Below, one piece after another: positions 11,611 through 39,763 of a stretch of DNA of 43,533 nt. The notes under the pieces were generated by a model. The model did not search any database. It was not told the DNA's origin and saw nothing but the letters and a program-made list of their open reading frames with translations. The stretch's first letter is position 1, and every line of letters starts with the position of its first letter. The stretch lies in assembly GCA_013822585.1 (NCBI GenBank), contig PNKG01000003.1:1-43533 (forward strand), given 5' to 3'. Source of the stretch: Opitutus sp. Its GTDB lineage: Bacteria; Verrucomicrobiota; Verrucomicrobiia; Opitutales; Opitutaceae. A program made the translations under genes and the position numbers.

Positions 11611-11755
11611 GAGCGCGTTGCGGTCAACGCGCTCCACCTCCGCGCCGTGACAAGGAAGAGCCGCGGCGCGCCGGGCGCGCCGCGGCTTGGGCACACACTA
11701 ACCTGCAAGGCATTCCCACCGCCTTGTCATCGCGCGGTCCGCGGAACGGACCGCG
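11611..11755. terminator. Cluster of three strong hairpins between convergent genes
   Basis: Between cinA (ends 11564) and the convergent outer-membrane gene (ends 11770) lie three perfect inverted repeats: GAGCGCGTT/AACGCGCTC at 11611-11634, AGCCGCGGCGCGCC/GGCGCGCCGCGGCT at 11659-11687, and CGCGGTCCG/CGGACCGCG at 11733-11755. None has a long T-tract. Position suggests bidirectional termination or 3'-end protection. Confidence 0.5.
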
Positions 11756-11769
11756 GTGGTCCGGCTGAA

Positions 11770-31481: not shown

Positions 31482-31529
31482 CTTGCCGCGTCCGGGCTGC
31501 GGGGGAAATTCTCCGCGCACGATCACCCG

Positions 31530-31565
31530 ATGATCCCCAGCCATCACCATCACCACCTCCTCTAG
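31530..31565 (+). CDS. hisL: his operon leader peptide (five consecutive His codons)
   Basis: An 11-codon ORF reading MIPSHHHHHLL and ending TAG, too short for ordinary gene callers. Five adjacent histidine codons, about 170 bp before hisG, mark it as a classical attenuation leader: ribosome stalling at His codons when charged tRNA-His is scarce would change folding of the downstream RNA. The His-codon segment CATCACCAC (31548-31556) is exactly complementary to GTGGTGATG at 31597-31605. No Shine-Dalgarno is visible near the ATG, as for most genes here. Confidence 0.82.
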   Translation: MIPSHHHHHLL

Positions 31566-31654
31566 CCTTCCCACCCGGGAAGGCAGGTGCCTTCTCGTGG
31601 TGATGAATCCCTTTTCTGAACCCCGGTCGGCACCGTCCACCGGGGTTTCTCTTT
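31566..31654 (+). promoter_or_regulatory. his attenuator with intrinsic terminator
   Basis: After the leader stop come small hairpins (CCTTCCC/GGGAAGG around 31567-31582; GAAGGC-AGGT-GCCTTC around 31579-31594), the His-codon-complementary segment GTGGTGATG (31597-31605), and a terminator with arms AACCCCGGT (31619-31627) and ACCGGGGTT (31639-31647) followed by TCTCTTT. CCGGG around 31575-31580 could pair with the 5' terminator arm as an antiterminator. This is the 1:2 / 2:3 / 3:4 logic of amino-acid attenuators; exact alternative folds need RNA folding. Confidence 0.78.
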
Positions 31655-31738: not shown

Positions 31739-32650
31739 ATGCCTCCCTCCGCCCCGCCCAAAGACCGCCTCCGCCTCGCCGTGCAGAAAAGCGGCCGCCT
31801 CGCGACCGACTCGCTCGACCTCCTCGCCCGCTGCGGCATCAAGGTCAAGACGCCCAAGGAGAAGCTCCTCCTCCACGCCGGCAATTTCCCGATCGACCTG
31901 CTCTTCGTGCGCGACGACGACATCCCGCAGCTCGTGATGGACGGCGTGTGCGACCTCGGCATCGTCGGCACCAACGTCCTCGAGGAGACCGCGCTCCAGC
32001 GGCGCACCGACGGCGACGGCGACGGCTACGAACTCGCGCGCACGCTCGAATTCGGCGGCTGCCGGCTCGCCATCGCCCTGCCCGAGGAACGCACCTACGC
32101 CGGCCCGGCCGACCTCGCGGGCCTGCGCATCGCCACCTCCTACCCGCAGCTCACGAAGCGCTTTCTCGCCGAAAAGGGAGTCGCCGCCGAGGTCGTGGTG
32201 TTGAGCGGCTCGGTCGAGATCGCGCCACGCCTCGGCCTCGCGGAGGCGATCTGCGACCTCGTCGCCACCGGCTCGACGCTCGAGGCCAACCAGCTCCGCG
32301 CGGTCGAGACCGTCTTCCGGAGCTCCGCCGTGCTCATCCGCGCCGCGCGCGAGCTCAACCCGGTCAAGGCCCATGCGCTCGAGCTGCTGCTCCGCCGCAT
32401 CGACGGCGTGCAACTGGCCGCCGAGGCCAAATACATCATGCTCCACGCCCCGAAGTCCGCCCTGCCGGAGATCCGGAAGCTCCTGCCGGGCGCCGAGAAC
32501 CCCACCCTCCTGCCGCTGGCCGGCGACGAGTCGCGCGTCGCGCTCCACGCCGTCTGCCAGGAGGCCGTGTTCTGGGAAACGATGGAGTCGCTCAAGCGCG
32601 CCGGCGCCAGCAGCATCCTTGTCCTCCCGATCGAAAAGATGATGCTGTGA
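31739..32650 (+). CDS. hisG: ATP phosphoribosyltransferase, long (regulated) form
   Basis: A 303-residue enzyme catalysing the first step of histidine synthesis, joining PRPP and ATP. It is the long HisG type: two catalytic lobes ([60 protein letters not shown]) and the C-terminal ACT-like feedback domain ending [23 protein letters not shown]. Short-form partner HisZ is therefore not needed. The C-terminus is strikingly like the enterobacterial enzyme. Feedback inhibition by histidine is expected for this form; transcription is likely attenuated by the hisL leader. Confidence 0.96.
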
Positions 32651-32689: not shown

Positions 32690-32775
32690 CCGGCCCGATC
32701 CTCCTCGCCCATGCCCCTCGTCTCCAGCCGCGATTGCCACCCCGTCGCCCGTCGCCGGGCAGAGGTCCGCGCATC

Positions 32776-34122
32776 ATGCCCACCGCACTCGACCAGCACC
32801 TCACGCTTCAGCCCTTCCCCGTGACTCCCCTCGTCTGGAAAAACCTCTCGCCCGCCCGCCGCGCCGCCGCCCTGCAGCGGCCCGCGCAAGCGGTGCGCCC
32901 CCAGGTCGCCGCCGCGGTCGCGCGCCTCGTCGCGCAGGTGCGCCGCGAGGGCGACGCCGCGCTCCGCCGCCTGACCGCGCGGTTCGACGGCGTCCGGCTC
33001 TCCGCGCTGCGCGTGAGCGAGGCCGAGTTCGCCGCCGCGGAGGCGGCGCTTTCGCCGGCCGACCGCGCCGCACTGCGCACGGCCTACCGCAACCTTCGGC
33101 GTTTCCACGCCGCCCAGCGCGCGGCTCCCGTGCGCCTCGAGACCACCCGGGGCGTCGTCTGCGCAAAGGTCTCGCGCCCCATCGGCCGCGTGGGCCTCTA
33201 CGTGCCGGGCGGCAGCGCGCCGCTGTTCTCGACCGCGCTGATGCTGGGCGTGCCGTCGCAACTGGCCGGCAACCCGGGGCGCGTGCTTTGCACACCGCCG
33301 GGCCCCGCCGGCCGCGTGAGCCCGTGGATCCTCTGCGCCGCACGGCTCTGCGGCATCGCCGACGTGTTCAAGGCCGGCGGCGCGCAGGCCATCGCCGCCT
33401 TGGCCTACGGCACCGCCACGATCCCGAAATGCGACAAGCTCTTCGGCCCCGGCAACGCCTTCGTCACCGAGGCCAAGCAGCTCGTCGCCCGCGACCCGGC
33501 CGGCGCGGCCATCGATCTGCCGGCCGGGCCCTCCGAGGTGATGGTCATCGCCGACCACACCGCCGATCCTGTCTTCGTCGCCGCGGACCTGCTCTCGCAG
33601 GCCGAGCACGGGCCGGATTCGCAGGTTGTGTTGGTGGCGTTGTCGGAAAAATTCGCCGCGCGGGTCTCCGCCGAGGTCGTGGCGCAACTCCGCCTCCTGC
33701 CACGCCGGGCCATCGCCGCCGCGGCCCTGCGGAAAAGCCGCGTCATCCTCGCCGCCTCGCGCGCCGAAGCGGCCGCGATTGCCAACCTCTATGCGCCCGA
33801 GCACCTGATCCTGCAGGTGGCAAACCCGCGCGCCCTCCTGCCGGAAATCACCGCCGCCGGCTCGGTGTTCGTCGGCGCGTGGACGCCCGAATCGCTCGGC
33901 GACTACGCGAGCGGCACCAACCACGTGCTGCCCACCTACGGCTGGGCGCGGGCCTACAGCGGTCTCGGCCTTTCCGACTTCCAGCGCTCCATGACCGTGC
34001 AGGAGGCGCGGCCACGCGGCCTGTGCCGCCTCGGCCCGGCCGTCGCCCGCCTCGCCGACGCCGAAGGCCTCGCCGCCCACCGCCGCGCCGTCACTGTCCG
34101 TCTGCAAAAACTCGCCCGATGA
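32776..34122 (+). CDS. hisD: Histidinol dehydrogenase
   Basis: A 448-residue zinc enzyme performing the last two oxidations, histidinol to histidine, with NAD+. Family blocks are RPIGRVGLYVPGGSAPLFSTALML, GGAQAIAALAYGTATIPKCDKLFGPGNAFVTEAKQ and DLPAGPSEVMVIAD. The zinc ligands are visible: Gln and His in LLSQAEHGPDSQ, Asp in ESLGDYASGTNHVLPTYG, and the late His in AHRRAVTVRL. The ATG at 32776 is taken; 42 upstream in-frame bases are Pro/Arg-rich. It is 125 bp after hisG. Confidence 0.95.
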   Translation: MPTALDQHLTLQPFPVTPLVWKNLSPARRAAALQRPAQAVRPQVAAAVARLVAQVRREGDAALRRLTARFDGVRLSALRVSEAEFAAAEAALSPADRAALRTAYRNLRRFHAAQRAAPVRLETTRGVVCAKVSRPIGRVGLYVPGGSAPLFSTALMLGVPSQLAGNPGRVLCTPPGPAGRVSPWILCAARLCGIADVFKAGGAQAIAALAYGTATIPKCDKLFGPGNAFVTEAKQLVARDPAGAAIDLPAGPSEVMVIADHTADPVFVAADLLSQAEHGPDSQVVLVALSEKFAARVSAEVVAQLRLLPRRAIAAAALRKSRVILAASRAEAAAIANLYAPEHLILQVANPRALLPEITAAGSVFVGAWTPESLGDYASGTNHVLPTYGWARAYSGLGLSDFQRSMTVQEARPRGLCRLGPAVARLADAEGLAAHRRAVTVRLQKLAR

Positions 34123-34240: not shown

Positions 34241-35305
34241 ATGAAACCCATCGACTCCGTTCTCGCCCTTGTCCGCCCCGAGATCCTCGCGCTCACGCCC
34301 TACTCGTCGGCGCGCAAGGAATCATCCGGCGGACGCGTCTGGCTTGATGCGAACGAAAATCCCCTCACGCCGCACGCCGGCGCGCCGCGTCTCAACCGCT
34401 ATCCCGACCCGCAGCCGCCCGAGCTCATCGCCCGGCTCGCCTCGCTCTACGGCGTCGTGCCCGATCGCGTGCTCGTCACGCGCGGCTCCGACGAGGGCAT
34501 CGACCTGCTCCTGCGCGCCTTCTGCCGCGCCGGCCAGGATTCCATCGTCATCACGCCGCCGACCTACGGCATGTATGCCGTCGCCGCCGGCATCCAGGGC
34601 GCCGCCGTCCGCAGCGCCCCGCTCGAGCGCGACCAGGACTTCGCCCTCGATGTCGGCGCCGTGCTCGCGGCGGTCGACGCGTCGGTGAAGCTCGTTTTCC
34701 TCTGCTCGCCCAACAATCCCACCGGCCAGCTTCTCGCCTGCGACTCCGTGCGGCACGTCGTCGACGCGCTGGCCGGACGCGCCATCGTGGTCATCGACGA
34801 GGCCTACGGCGAGTTCGCCAGCGAGCCGAGCTTTGCCGGTGAATTGGCGGAGCGGCCGAACCTCGTCGTGCTGCGCACGCTCTCCAAGGCCTTCGGCCTG
34901 GCCGGCGCGCGCGTGGGCGCGACGCTTGCCACCCCCGAGCTGATCGCCGTGCTGAAAAAGATCATCGCGCCCTACCCGATCCCCACGCCGGTGGCGAACG
35001 CCGCGCTCGAGGCCTTGGCGCCGCACGCCATCGCGGCGGCCCGCCGTTCCGCGCTCGGATTGGTCGAGCAACGCCGACGGCTCGCGGCCGGCTTGGCCGA
35101 ACTGCCCGCCGTGAGGCGCGTGTGGCCGAGCGACGCCAATTTCCTTCTCGTCGAAGTCACCGACTCCGCCCGCGTGATGTCCGTCGCCCGCGCCGCGGGC
35201 CTCATCCTCCGCGACCGCAGCAAGGACGTCCCCAACACCGTCCGCATCACCGTCGGCTCGCCCGAAGAAACCGCCTTCGCCTTGGAGACCCTCGCCCGTG
35301 CGTAG
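34241..35305 (+). CDS. hisC: Histidinol-phosphate aminotransferase
   Basis: A 354-residue PLP-dependent class I/II aminotransferase converting imidazole acetol phosphate to histidinol phosphate. Visible are WLDANENPLTPHAG, VTRGSDEGIDLLLRAFCRAG, ITPPTYGMYAVAA, LCSPNNPTGQLL, the PLP-contact aspartate and tyrosine in VVIDEAYGEFA and the Schiff-base lysine in LRTLSKAFGLAGARVG. The ATG at 34241 is standard. The wording of several blocks is close to enterobacterial HisC. Confidence 0.95.
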   Translation: MKPIDSVLALVRPEILALTPYSSARKESSGGRVWLDANENPLTPHAGAPRLNRYPDPQPPELIARLASLYGVVPDRVLVTRGSDEGIDLLLRAFCRAGQDSIVITPPTYGMYAVAAGIQGAAVRSAPLERDQDFALDVGAVLAAVDASVKLVFLCSPNNPTGQLLACDSVRHVVDALAGRAIVVIDEAYGEFASEPSFAGELAERPNLVVLRTLSKAFGLAGARVGATLATPELIAVLKKIIAPYPIPTPVANAALEALAPHAIAAARRSALGLVEQRRRLAAGLAELPAVRRVWPSDANFLLVEVTDSARVMSVARAAGLILRDRSKDVPNTVRITVGSPEETAFALETLARA

Positions 35306-35374: not shown

Positions 35375-35444
35375 GGGGGGCGCAGTCTTGCTACGCCCTT
35401 CGCTCGCTCGCGGCACCATTGGGGCGCAGCAAGATTGCGCCCCC
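35375..35444. repeat. Inverted REP-like pair between hisC and hisB
   Basis: GGGGCGCAGTCTTGCTACGCCC (35377-35398) and GGGGCGCAGCAAGATTGCGCC (35421 onward) are inverted copies of the GGGCGCAG hairpin family of 14508-14580, with a few substitutions. The GTAG foot has decayed in both, suggesting older, non-mobile copies. Confidence 0.7.
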
Positions 35445-35455
35445 ACCACGCTGGC

Positions 35456-36520
35456 ATGAAAAAACTCCTCTTCCTCGACCGCGACGGCACCCTGATCGAC
35501 GAACCCCCCGACCGGCAGGTCGACCGGCTCGACAAGTTCGCCCTCGAACCCGATGTCGTGCCGGCGTTGCGGCGCTTCGCCGAAGCCGGCTACACGTTCG
35601 TCCTGGTCACGAATCAGGACGGACTCGGCACACCCAGCTTCCGCGAAAGCGAATTCCGCCCGCTGCAGGACCTGCTGCTCCGCATCCTCGAGTCGCAGGG
35701 CATTCGCTTCGAGGCCGTCCGCATCTGCCCGCACACCGCCGCCGACCGCTGCGACTGCCGCAAGCCCAGGCCCGGCCTCGTGCTCGACTACCTGCGCGAC
35801 ACCGCGTGGGACCGCGGGGCCTCCGCCGTCATCGGCGACCGCGAAACCGACCTGCAACTCGCCGACGCGCTCGGCGTGCGCGGGCTGCGCTACGACCGCA
35901 AGGCCGGCGGCTGGTCCGCACTCGCGCGCCAGGTGCTCGACGCCCCGCGCAGAGCCACCGTCCGCCGCGAGACCAAGGAGACGAAGATCACCGTCTCGGT
36001 CGACCTCGACGCCCCGGGACCGGTGGCGCTCCGCACCGGCCTCGGCTTTTTCGACCACATGCTCGAACAGATCGCGCGCAACGCCGGCATCGCTCTCGAG
36101 ATCGCCTGCGAGGGCGACCTGCACATCGACGAGCACCACACCATCGAGGACACCGGCCTCGCCCTCGGCACCGCGCTGCGGCAGGCGCTCGGCGACAAAC
36201 GCGGCATCGGCCGCTACGGCTTCATCCTGCCGATGGACGAGGCCAAGGCCGAGGTTGCACTCGATCTCAGCGGGCGCGCCTGGTTGGTCTTCGACGCGCA
36301 ATTCCCGCGCGAGCGCGTCGGCGAGATGCCGACTGAAATGGTTTCGCACTTCTTCAAGTCGGTCAGCGACACCCTCGCCGCCACGCTCCACATGAAGGCC
36401 ACCGGCGACAACGCGCACCACATGGTCGAGGCGCTGTTCAAAGGCTTCGGCCGCGCCCTGCGCCCCGCCATCGCCCGCGGCACCGGCGGCGACATCCCCA
36501 GCTCGAAAGGCGTGTTATGA
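35456..36520 (+). CDS. hisB: Bifunctional histidinol-phosphatase / imidazoleglycerol-phosphate dehydratase
   Basis: A 354-residue fusion. The N-terminal HAD phosphatase (residues 1-165) has LLFLDRDGTLIDEPP with the DxD nucleophile, VTNQDGLGT, the zinc loop CPHTAADRCDCRKPRPG and IGDRETDLQLA. The C-terminal dehydratase has TGLGFFDHMLEQIA, HIDEHHTIEDTGLALGTAL and DNAHHMVEALFKGFGRAL. It catalyses two steps of histidine synthesis. Fused HisB(NB) is typical of gamma-proteobacteria and Bacteroidetes, and the ending SSKGVL equals the enterobacterial one. The ATG at 35456 is clear. Confidence 0.96.
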   Translation: MKKLLFLDRDGTLIDEPPDRQVDRLDKFALEPDVVPALRRFAEAGYTFVLVTNQDGLGTPSFRESEFRPLQDLLLRILESQGIRFEAVRICPHTAADRCDCRKPRPGLVLDYLRDTAWDRGASAVIGDRETDLQLADALGVRGLRYDRKAGGWSALARQVLDAPRRATVRRETKETKITVSVDLDAPGPVALRTGLGFFDHMLEQIARNAGIALEIACEGDLHIDEHHTIEDTGLALGTALRQALGDKRGIGRYGFILPMDEAKAEVALDLSGRAWLVFDAQFPRERVGEMPTEMVSHFFKSVSDTLAATLHMKATGDNAHHMVEALFKGFGRALRPAIARGTGGDIPSSKGVL

Positions 36521-36621
36521 ACGCGCGTCGATCGTCTTTCGTTCGCGCCGCCGGCGAACCGCAAAAACGCCAACCCCCGGCCTCCACGCACCAAGGAAGC
36601 CCTGAATGCCAAACTCGTCCG

Positions 36622-36673
36622 TTGGCGTTTGGCTCTTGGTGTTTCTCTGGGTCTTGGATGTTGGAGAGTGGAG
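36622..36673 (+). repeat. TTGG heptad array between hisB and hisH
   Basis: TTGG recurs at 36622, 36629, 36636, 36654 and 36661, with degenerate TGG at about 36648 and 36669, i.e. a period of about 7 nt. It lies in the 196-bp hisB-hisH gap, followed by a pyrimidine tract (CCTCTCACCCTCTCTTTCAC) leading to the hisH start. Confidence 0.55.
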
Positions 36674-36716
36674 TTGTTCTCCGATTTTTCCTCTCACCCT
36701 CTCTTTCACTCCCCTC

Positions 36717-37307
36717 ATGCTAGCCATCGTCGACAGCGGCGGCGCCAACATCGCCTCGGTGCGTTTCGCCCTCGAACGCCTCGGCGGGCGCGGCCAACTG
36801 ACGGCCGATCCGGCGGTCATCCGCGCGGCCGACCGCGTGATCCTGCCCGGCGTGGGCTCAGCCCCGGAAGGCATGAAGCGCCTGCACGCCAAGGGCCTGG
36901 TCGACTGCGTCCGCGCGCTCACCCAACCCGTGCTGGGCATCTGTCTCGGCATGCAGCTCCTCTTCGAGGCCTCCGCCGAAGGCGAAGTCCCGTCGCTCGG
37001 CCTGCTGCCCGGCCGCGTGGACCGCCTGCCGGAGTCTCCGGGCATCACGGTCCCGCACATGGGGTGGAACACGCTCGAAACCCTCCGCGCCACGCCCCTG
37101 CTCCGCGGCCTGCCGCCGGACGCCCGTTTCTACTTCGTGCACAGCTACGCCGCGCCGGTCACAGCGGACACCCTCGCCGCCGCGACCCACGGTGCCCGCT
37201 TTGCCGCCGTCGTGCAGCGCGGCAATATTTCCGGCGTGCAATTCCACCCCGAGCGCTCCGGCCCCGCCGGCGCGCAACTCCTCAAGAACTTCCTCACCCA
37301 CACCTGA
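36717..37307 (+). CDS. hisH: Imidazole glycerol phosphate synthase, glutamine amidotransferase subunit
   Basis: A 196-residue class I glutaminase that supplies ammonia to HisF. The nucleophile is Cys76 in LGICLGMQLLFE; the His-Glu pair is in GVQFHPERS; the oxyanion block is LPGVGSAPEGM and the interface segment VPHMGWNTLE. The ATG at 36717 (MLAIVDSGGAN) fits the family start. It forms a heterodimer with the hisF product encoded downstream. Confidence 0.95.
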   Translation: MLAIVDSGGANIASVRFALERLGGRGQLTADPAVIRAADRVILPGVGSAPEGMKRLHAKGLVDCVRALTQPVLGICLGMQLLFEASAEGEVPSLGLLPGRVDRLPESPGITVPHMGWNTLETLRATPLLRGLPPDARFYFVHSYAAPVTADTLAAATHGARFAAVVQRGNISGVQFHPERSGPAGAQLLKNFLTHT

Positions 37308-37320
37308 CGGCGGAACCCTT

Positions 37321-37339
37321 CATGCCGTAATACGGCATG
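37321..37339. promoter_or_regulatory. Perfect palindrome with TAATA centre in the hisH-hisA gap
   Basis: CATGCCGTAATACGGCATG is a perfect 19-bp inverted repeat, 14 bp after the hisH stop and 31 bp before the hisA ATG. Centre TAATA is shared with 6468-6490 and, as the complement, 30766-30790. As RNA it would be a hairpin at the hisA ribosome-loading region. Confidence 0.5.
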
Positions 37340-37369
37340 AACGCCGGGACCACTTCCCCCTGCCAGTTC

Positions 37370-38113
37370 ATGATCGTCTATCCCGCCATCGACCTGCGCC
37401 GCGGGCGCGTCGTGCGCCTGACCGAAGGCCGCTTCGAGGCCGAGACCGCCTACCACGACGACCCCGTCGCCGTCGCGCGCGGGTTCAAGGCCGCCGGCGC
37501 CGCCTGGCTGCACCTCGTCGATCTCGACGGGGCCAAAGATCCCACCCAGCGGCAGACGCGGCTCGTGGCCGAGATCGTCCGGGCCGCTGGCCTGCGCGTG
37601 CAATCCGGCGGCGGCGTCCGCGAGGAGGCGCACGTCCGTGCACTGCTCGACGCCGGCGTCGAGCGCGTGATCGTCGGCAGCCTCGCCGTGAAACAGCCGG
37701 CCCTCGTCGGCGCCTGGCTGGAGTCGTTCGGCCCGGAGAAGATCGTGCTCGCGCTGGATGTGCGCCTCGCCGCCGGCGTGCCGCTGATCGCCGTCGCCGG
37801 CTGGCAGGCCGACAGCGGCGTCACGCTCGACGCCACGCTCCGCACCTTCCTGCCGCGCGGGTTGCGCCACATTCTCTGCACCGATATCTCGCGCGACGGC
37901 AAGCTCACCGGCCCGAACTTCGCGCTTTACGCCGCGCTCCGGCGCGATTTTCCAACGCTCGCGGTGCAGGCGTCCGGCGGCGTGTCCTCGCTCGCCGACC
38001 TCCGCCGCCTCCAGGCGGAGGGCGCGCCCGGCGCCATCGTCGGCCGCGCGCTCTACGAAAACAGGTTCACCCTCAAGGAGGCATTGGCCGTCCCATCTTT
38101 CTCTGAATCGTGA
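37370..38113 (+). CDS. hisA: ProFAR isomerase (phosphoribosylformimino-5-aminoimidazole carboxamide ribotide isomerase)
   Basis: A 247-residue TIM barrel performing the Amadori rearrangement of ProFAR. Catalytic Asp is in [21 protein letters not shown] and the second Asp in [17 protein letters not shown]; phosphate-binding loops are [15 protein letters not shown] and [14 protein letters not shown]. The ATG at 37370 gives the usual MIVYPAID start; an earlier ATG at 37337 inside the palindrome would add 11 residues. Confidence 0.94.
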
Positions 38114-38252: not shown

Positions 38253-39020
38253 ATGCTAGCCCGCCGCATCATCCCCTGCCTCGACGTCCGCGCCGGCCGC
38301 GTCGTCAAGGGCGTGCAGTTCCGCCAGCACGAGGACGTGGGCGACATCCTCGAACTGGCCCGGCGCTACCGCGACGCGGGCGCGGACGAGATCGTCTTCT
38401 ACGACATCACCGCGAGCAGCGACGGACGGACCGTGTCGGCCGACTGGGTGGAGAGCGTCGCGCGCGTGCTCGACGTGCCGTTCTGCGTCGCGGGCGGCAT
38501 CCGTTCCCTGGATGATGCGCGCCGCCTCCTGCACAGCGGCGCCGACAAGGTCTCGCTCAACTCCCCCGCGCTCGAAAACCCCGCGCTCGTCACCCGCCTC
38601 GCCGCCGAGTTCGGTTCGCAGGCCGTCGTCGTGGGCATCGATTCGCGGGCGGAGCACGGCGACTACTTCGTGAAGCAATACACCGGCGATCCGGACAAGA
38701 CCCGCGCCACGCGCTGGCGCACGGTCGACTGGGCCCGGGAGGCGCAGCGCCTCGGCGCGGGCGAGGTCGTGCTCAACTGCATGAATCAGGACGGCGTGCG
38801 CGGCGGCTACGATCTCGCGCAGCTCAAGCTCGTGCGCGCCGCGCTCACCATCCCGCTCGTCGCCTCGGGCGGCGCGGGCGCGCCGGAGCACTTCCGCGAT
38901 GTGTTCCGCGCCGCCGGCGTCGACGGCGCGCTCGCCGCGTCGGTTTTCCACAAAGGCACGATCCGCATTCCCGACCTGAAATCCTACCTCGCCCGCGAGG
39001 GCGTGTGCGTCCGCACCTGA
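38253..39020 (+). CDS. hisF: Imidazole glycerol phosphate synthase, cyclase subunit
   Basis: A 255-residue TIM barrel forming imidazole glycerol phosphate and AICAR using ammonia from HisH. Catalytic aspartates are in [19 protein letters not shown] and [35 protein letters not shown] and [14 protein letters not shown] are the conserved blocks. The insertion [20 protein letters not shown] is the enterobacterial-type HisF variant rather than the shorter IDAK form. Start and length are standard. Confidence 0.95.
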
Positions 39021-39031
39021 ACCCAGACCTC

Positions 39032-39124
39032 AACCACAAATGAACACCGATGGACACAGATCGAGGACGCGGCTTCGTTCGCTTTCTCCGTTCATCTGAG
39101 CGCATCTGTGTCCATCTGTGGTTT
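39032..39124. repeat. GGACACAGAT dispersed repeat, inverted pair in the hisF-hisIE gap
   Basis: AACCACAAATGAACACCGAT then GGACACAGAT (39032-39061) is mirrored by ATCTGTGTCCATCTGTGGTT (39104-39123), with a further unit TTCATCTGAGC before it. The same motif family lies at 10086-10117. Units recur about every 11-12 nt. It occupies almost the whole gap. Confidence 0.65.
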
Positions 39125-39134
39125 CTCCCCTCCG

Positions 39135-39749
39135 ATGAATTCTCTTCCGACTCTCGACTGGCAAAAGGGCGGCGGCCTCCTTCCCGCCATCGTCCAGGAT
39201 GCCGACACCCAACAGGTGCTGATGCTCGGCTACATGAACGCCGCGGCGCTCGAGCAGACGCTCGCGACGAAGCGCGTGACGTTCTTCTCGCGCGCGAAGA
39301 GCCGCCCGTGGGTGAAAGGCGAGACGTCCGGGCACTACCTCGATCTCGTCAATGTGGAGGCCGACTGCGACGCGGACGCCCTGCTCGTGCGGGCGCGACC
39401 GAACGGCCCGACGTGCCATCGGGGCACCTGCAGCTGCTTCGGCGAGGGCGGCGCGAGCGGCGTCGGCTTCCTCGCCGAACTCGAGCGCCTCGTGACGCAG
39501 CGCATCGCCTCCGGCGACGAAAAGAGCTACACGGCCAAGCTCGTCCGCGAGGGCGTGAGGCGCGTGGCGCAGAAGGTCGGCGAGGAGGGCGTGGAAACGG
39601 CGCTCGCCGCCACCGCGGGCGACCACGCTGAACTCGCCGGCGAAGCGGCCGACCTGCTCTACCACCTCATCGTGCTGCTGCGCGCCAAGGGCCTCACGCT
39701 CGGCGACGCGCTCGCGGTCTTGGAAAAACGCCACGCGGCGAAGAAATAG
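39135..39749 (+). CDS. hisIE: Bifunctional phosphoribosyl-AMP cyclohydrolase / phosphoribosyl-ATP pyrophosphatase
   Basis: A 204-residue fusion catalysing steps two and three of histidine synthesis. The cyclohydrolase half has LPAIVQDADTQQVLMLGYMN, FFSRAKSRPWVKGETSGHYLDL, the zinc cysteines in DCDADALLV and CHRGTCSCF. The pyrophosphohydrolase half (from about residue 110) has SYTAKLVREGVRRVAQKVGEEGVETALAA and AADLLYHLIVLL. The fusion is common in enterobacteria. The ATG at 39135 is preceded by TTCTCCCCTCCG, a pyrimidine tract. Last gene of the operon. Confidence 0.95.
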   Translation: MNSLPTLDWQKGGGLLPAIVQDADTQQVLMLGYMNAAALEQTLATKRVTFFSRAKSRPWVKGETSGHYLDLVNVEADCDADALLVRARPNGPTCHRGTCSCFGEGGASGVGFLAELERLVTQRIASGDEKSYTAKLVREGVRRVAQKVGEEGVETALAATAGDHAELAGEAADLLYHLIVLLRAKGLTLGDALAVLEKRHAAKK

Positions 39750-39763
39750 TCGGTTCACGATAA

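Follow-up and report, generated by a model that had tools for sequence, protein, structure and literature searches.

A candidate ribosome-mediated histidine attenuator ahead of the his operon in Opitutaceae

Positions 31530–31654 of the window, the whole 43,533-nucleotide stretch of Opitutus sp. DNA analysed here, can be assigned with high confidence to a ribosome-mediated attenuator acting on transcription of the his operon, with six segments that would work as they do in the his leader of E. coli/Salmonella. A classical attenuator of this kind had been proposed in an earlier note made from the letters of the window, and our analysis supports it: a His-rich open reading frame (ORF), mutually exclusive helices and a terminator are kept in 25/25 hisG loci with compensatory changes, and ribosome-mediated attenuation is the best explanation for this combination. 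As judged from sequence comparison, the His leader is real and conserved, and it is very likely functional. Its anatomy, its conservation, the compensatory changes and its co-occurrence with one type of operon are direct observations.

Attenuators based on leader peptides had been known for Proteobacteria and Actinobacteria (PMC1262725); later work added His leaders of Firmicutes (PMC2965389, PMC9413887). The earlier note considered the leader new as a case outside the proteobacteria. This stands for the phylum but not more widely, the Firmicutes cases having already been published; provisionally, no description of ribosome-mediated attenuation in Verrucomicrobiota was found among freely licensed papers. 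The mechanism itself is an established one; what is new, for the moment, is the phylum. A textbook mode of regulation is extended to a phylum for which no description was found.

Anatomy and conservation of the leader

The elements of the leader and of its putative promoter are as follows.

31483–31488, plus strand: -35-like hexamer TTGCCG, part of a CTTGC element; consensus match only, putative promoter
31507–31512, plus strand: -10 candidate AATTCT, weak
31530–31565, plus strand: leader peptide ORF, MIPSHHHHHLL and stop, 11 codons; His run kept in 25/25 related loci
31542–31556, plus strand: segment A, the five His codons CATCACCATCACCAC, putative sensor; also complementary to D′
31565–31572, plus strand: segment B, GCCTTCCC; shares its first base with the end of the UAG stop
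31577–31584, plus strand: segment C, GGGAAGGC; predicted partner B (ribosome stalled or absent) or D (ribosome at the stop)
31586–31596, plus strand: segment D, GGTGCCTTCTC; the 3′ part pairs with C and the 5′ part, GGTGCC, with GGCACC in E
31597–31605, plus strand: segment D′, GTGGTGATG, complementary to the His codons CATCACCAC; may lengthen the antiterminator on AACC of E
31619–31634, plus strand: segment E, AACCCCGGTCGGCACC, terminator 5′ arm and part of the loop; alternative partner D/D′
31639–31654, plus strand: segment F, ACCGGGGTT and T-rich tail, terminator 3′ arm

The 11-codon ORF with five adjacent His codons is therefore present as the earlier note had described it, and so are the exact complement of the His codons (31597–31605 is the reverse complement of CATCACCAC) and a terminator within about 210 bp ahead of hisG. 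The terminator arms are AACCCCGGT (31619–31627) and ACCGGGGTT (31639–31647), followed by TTTCTCTTT, a T-tail broken by a C. The hisG ATG at 31739 is 209 nt past the leader ATG and about 85 nt downstream of the terminator. Five consecutive CAY codons occur once in the window and in 0/100 dinucleotide shuffles. The predicted folding energy of the 136-nt leader is −57.3 kcal/mol, and shuffled versions average −39.9 (z = −5.1); the 3′ part, with the His codons left out, also folds better than shuffles (z = −3.9).

To follow the leader through related genomes, we used 25 distinct species-level hisG loci, window included: the 17 closest relatives, Opitutaceae/Verrucomicrobiota loci with HisG at 73–88% identity, and 8 further loci. 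The next HisG relatives come from Gammaproteobacteria and Caulobacterales (55–59% identity). Alignment of the upstream regions, the check suggested beforehand, showed that the poly-His ORF and the terminator are kept throughout, and segments B to F and the T-run were likewise found in 25/25 loci. The His run counts five codons in 20 loci, four in 3 and three in 2. Both CAT and CAC occur at every His position, which argues for selection on the meaning of the codons. All 25 share the terminator, a hairpin placed directly at the stop codon, the sequence GYGCCTT and a motif resembling GTGG..GATG.

Pairing was scored after realigning the leaders from the stop codon (alignment A2), as a MAFFT alignment had misplaced D in one subclade. 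B:C is paired in 99% of cells over 24 distinct sequences, C:D in 96%, E:F in 95% and D:E in 94%. Changes on both sides were seen in 7 cells of E:F and B:C taken together (three pairs in E:F) and in 3 cells of C:D, and U-A is replaced with C-G in D:E in 5 sequences. The D:E pairing level was reached by 0/500 shuffles, slid registers gave at most 73%, and in most sequences D:E is stronger than the pairing obtained after shuffling D (mean z −2.3). The leader thus combines an ORF rich in codons for the end product ahead of the matching biosynthetic operon, a predicted intrinsic terminator between this ORF and hisG, and a mutually exclusive antiterminator with compensatory change, D:E being weaker in one subclade (L011, L013, L014, L016).

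The same region could be a plain intrinsic terminator or a processed 5′ UTR giving constitutive partial termination, with a His ORF that senses nothing. Terminators are common and the leader has no Shine-Dalgarno (SD) sequence, but in-frame His codons with synonymous changes precede the his operon in 25/25 loci and the alternative helices are kept with compensatory changes, which leaves this reading very improbable compared to an attenuator.

One genome, G203, has its his leader split across contigs, at L146 (G203:C235:6317-6445, minus strand) and L147 (G203:C137:17272-17404, minus strand). The leader and the B:C hairpin adjoin a recombinase-like ORF, while a hairpin, the terminator and hisG are on the other contig, and both halves carry GAGCTAGCCTTCCCTCCTCGGGAAGGC. 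This arrangement resembles the insertion of a mobile element at the attenuator hairpin.

Proposed switch and translation of the leader

From these elements we infer termination, ribosome stalling and a response to histidine, in the following way. When charged His-tRNA is plentiful, the ribosome would reach the UAG and cover B, with which the stop shares a base; C:D and E:F would then form and transcription would stop ahead of hisG. When His-tRNA is scarce, the ribosome would stall on the five His codons, leaving B free to make an early local hairpin with C. Once B:C has formed, D, together with D′, would be available to the 5′ arm and loop in E, no terminator would arise and hisGDCBHAF would be transcribed. 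With no ribosome at all, the His codons would pair with D′ around B:C, D would be tied up and E:F would terminate; this pairing crosses D:E, so termination may be favoured when the leader is not translated. The pairing between the His codons and GTGGTGATG emphasized in the earlier note represents one branch only, probably the state without ribosome. The regulatory decision is B:C versus C:D and D:E versus E:F, not this pairing.

Mean helix energies are −19.8 kcal/mol for E:F, −19.3 for C:D, −18.6 for D:E and −14.0 for B:C, comparable values being what a switch needs. Folding with the ribosome as a mask had also been suggested in the earlier note. With B masked (ribosome at the stop), C:D pairing reaches 0.95 of the ensemble; a ribosome stalled on the first His codon gives by itself no preference for B:C, with 0.45 for B:C against 0.54 for C:D on average at equilibrium, and the window sequence, taken by itself, is dominated by C:D in this state. 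The antiterminating outcome would therefore depend on B:C forming first during transcription, an assumption commonly made for his attenuators, as in the E. coli system. Ribosome-masked equilibrium folding did not separate the stalled and stop states by E pairing alone, since, as long as F is missing, E has an upstream partner in every state; snapshots taken before E were more telling. In the model the leader would be translated and the position of the ribosome would set termination; what bears on this is the in-frame conservation with synonymous changes and the mask-based folding.

Control of hisG translation, or by another ligand (T-box, riboswitch or HisR repressor), would dispense with ribosome stalling. 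A Na+ riboswitch match below threshold is what could speak for it, on the other strand only, but no Rfam family matched in the window at gathering score. The terminator, at its distance from hisG, cannot mask the start, where there is also no SD to mask. We regard this explanation as very improbable. The sub-threshold Rfam matches to the Na+ riboswitch and to snoRNA/miRNA families were rejected as lying on the other strand or being implausible.

According to the earlier note, the missing SD at the leader ATG would require ribosome loading different from the enterobacterial model. The SD is indeed absent at the window leader, but this is not specific to the leader: an SD-like motif was found at 2/25 leader starts and 0/25 hisG starts. 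Absence of the SD is a habit of these genes, not of the leader. Some Verrucomicrobia are reported to be scarce in SD sequences with an intact anti-SD (PMC10783764). A CTTGC -35-like element lies 42–50 nt ahead of the leader ATG in 25/25 loci. If it serves as a -35 box, transcripts would start only about 4–11 nt before this ATG (the -10 is weak), and near-leaderless initiation at the leader ORF is plausible. The system could be used to test transcription-translation coupling when a leader is translated without SD.

Downstream operon and its origin

The gene order after the leader is hisGDCBHAF, and the gene upstream of it is a yqeY homologue.

31739–32650, plus strand: hisG, ATP phosphoribosyltransferase, long E. 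coli type, 303 aa (TIGR00070; best solved relative 1h3d; tree)
32734–34122, plus strand: hisD, start codon uncertain (TIGR00069)
34241–35305, plus strand: hisC (TIGR01141)
35435–36520, plus strand: hisB, bifunctional histidinol-phosphatase/IGP dehydratase, a hisNB fusion (NF003937, 525 bits, cut-off 443)
36606–37307, plus strand: hisH (TIGR01855)
37337–38113, plus strand: hisA (TIGR00007)
38253–39020, plus strand: hisF (TIGR00735)

No hisI(E) was recognized directly after hisF (39021–39760 of the window), where the ORF 39050–39631 matches no Pfam family; hisI presumably lies elsewhere. The hisGDC(NB)HAF order with a hisNB fusion is that of the gammaproteobacterial his operon, and the fusion probably originated in the gamma branch, from which it would have spread with the operon (PMC8305728). 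HisG, HisD and HisC are closest to gammaproteobacterial versions, HisD and HisC being nearer to these than to the two alphaproteobacterial loci compared. In the HisG tree, the join with Gammaproteobacteria has weak support (92/66), with narrow sampling.

To survey the leader, we built a covariance model from Opitutaceae leaders only (R1) and the same model without the His run (R2). Among 150 family genomes, 14 carry an E. coli-type HisG (E < 1e-140) and 126 another HisG, at about 30% identity. R1 found the leader in 14/14 of the former and gave a strong match in 0/126 of the latter, strong matches being limited to three genera of Opitutaceae. Ahead of hisG genes of the ordinary family type, no run of at least 3 His codons occurs in the 16 regions checked, and among 388 genomes of the phylum strong leader matches occur only in Opitutaceae. 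This co-occurrence indicates that operon and attenuator were probably acquired together.

R1 also detects common sequence and structure with gammaproteobacterial leaders of the RF00514 type, with full-length matches in E. coli (7.4e-13), Tolumonas (2.7e-11), Bowmanella (1.5e-10) and Idiomarina (about 1e-8 to 1e-7); in four alphaproteobacterial hisG loci it had no significant match. Once the His run is removed, the best gamma leaders score 2e-7 to 2e-6 (E. coli 2e-6) and an unrelated terminator 1e-5, which makes common descent of the hairpin part with the gamma leaders likely, not certain. R2 is itself unspecific, as seen from a 31.9-bit match at 11649–11756 of the window (minus strand). This two-hairpin terminator-like element, which R1 matches weakly as well, lies just past the stop of a minus-strand ORF; we rejected it as a second leader because it reads as an ordinary gene-end terminator.

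Other loci of the phylum carry candidate attenuators. Before hisG of L199, L200 and L201 (genomes G299, G554 and G539, another family of the same class) we found a simpler His attenuator, with leaders MIWQVTIHHLHHHHVR and MTLHHHSLHHHTSRR and an antiterminator (−25.6 kcal/mol, z = −4.1) that begins at or just past the stop codon and overlaps the terminator 5′ arm. No His leader was seen at the remaining 27 hisG loci that were scanned in this genus. In Opitutaceae, an Ile-rich leader ORF precedes cimA (citramalate synthase, TIGR00977) in 17/30 genes examined (L158–L161, L164–L166, L169, L171, L173, L179–L185; also L149, L151–L154), for example VKATIIIAAIITIARLPGQVDAA and MTTTRIIADIIIIARQPGQDDAA. 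Those that were read over their full length also have a terminator, which makes this a candidate isoleucine attenuator. In a further family, L229 (228–371, genome G617) has the leader MIIVIIVSVSVLLGVSALRVLPDCS, ending in a stop codon, and a terminator before an ilvB-like acetolactate synthase gene, a candidate Ile/Val/Leu attenuator assigned by eye. From these loci, Verrucomicrobiota seem to make regular use of ribosome-mediated attenuation.

They also bear on the possibility that the Opitutaceae attenuator arose locally by convergence instead of being imported with the operon. The His attenuator of the other family, with its different structure, and the Ile-rich leaders before cimA indicate that attenuators do arise in the phylum, and the likeness to gamma leaders without the His run is only modestly above that of an unrelated terminator. 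Convergence is nevertheless unlikely given the strict co-occurrence with the E. coli-type operon, the mutual full-length recognition (R1 towards E. coli at 7e-13, RF00514 at 28.8–45.7 bits in 11/14 loci) and the segment-by-segment match with E. coli given below. Joint transfer of attenuator and his operon is the history we favour, with fair confidence. We infer a donor that was most likely Gammaproteobacteria-like. The E. coli-type operon would have arrived in the ancestor of the three Opitutaceae genera and replaced the ordinary family HisG, and the attenuator would have been kept under selection since. This would be a clear example of an operon that moved between phyla with its attenuator and stayed under selection in the new host.

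For the phylum as a whole, we lean slightly towards attenuation being established but unrecorded, in part imported with an operon and working SD-free on very short 5′ UTRs, in part evolved anew (the second His type, cimA Ile and ilvB Ile/Val).

Comparison with known attenuators

The window matches the Rfam His_leader family RF00514 with 28.8 bits, below its gathering score of 49. Of the 14 loci scanned by E-value, 11 match in the right place with 28.8–45.7 bits, all below 49, and at gathering score RF00514 has no match in 17 loci (L001–L017). The present leader set therefore indicates that this threshold misses real relatives outside Gammaproteobacteria. One RF00514-type locus, in E. coli NEB_Turbo (L198, 280–474, NZ_CP053605.1), has hisL annotated twice in tandem, a partial duplication of the attenuator in the record of this laboratory strain.

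Like E. coli/Salmonella hisL, the Opitutaceae leader has a poly-His ORF, a UAG overlapping the first hairpin arm (B), a terminator before hisG, six segments that oppose B:C/D:E to C:D/E:F, and a hisGDC(NB)HAF operon downstream. The order and position of A to F are those of E. coli, and CUUC..GUGGUG.AUGAA recurs in D/D′. The two differ in the ORF, which has 11 codons with 5 His in Opitutaceae and 16 codons with 7 His in E. coli, and in D:E, which is GGUGCC:GGCACC instead of AUCUUCC:GGAAGAU. The Opitutaceae leader further differs by its GC-rich helices, the lack of SD and its phylum, Verrucomicrobiota.

The Firmicutes His attenuators (B. cereus group, Peptostreptococcaceae and Erysipelotrichales) share with it a poly-His leader ORF, a terminator and an antiterminator, and horizontal transfer of operon and attenuator has been proposed there in one case, Lutispora (PMC9413887, PMC2965389). 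Published searches in that phylum found no RF00514-like motif, whereas the Opitutaceae leader does resemble RF00514 (PMC9413887, PMC2965389). Actinobacterial attenuators, compared here by their description, belong to another phylum; they too have a leader ORF carrying codons of the amino acid that is made, and a terminator/antiterminator pair (PMC1262725).
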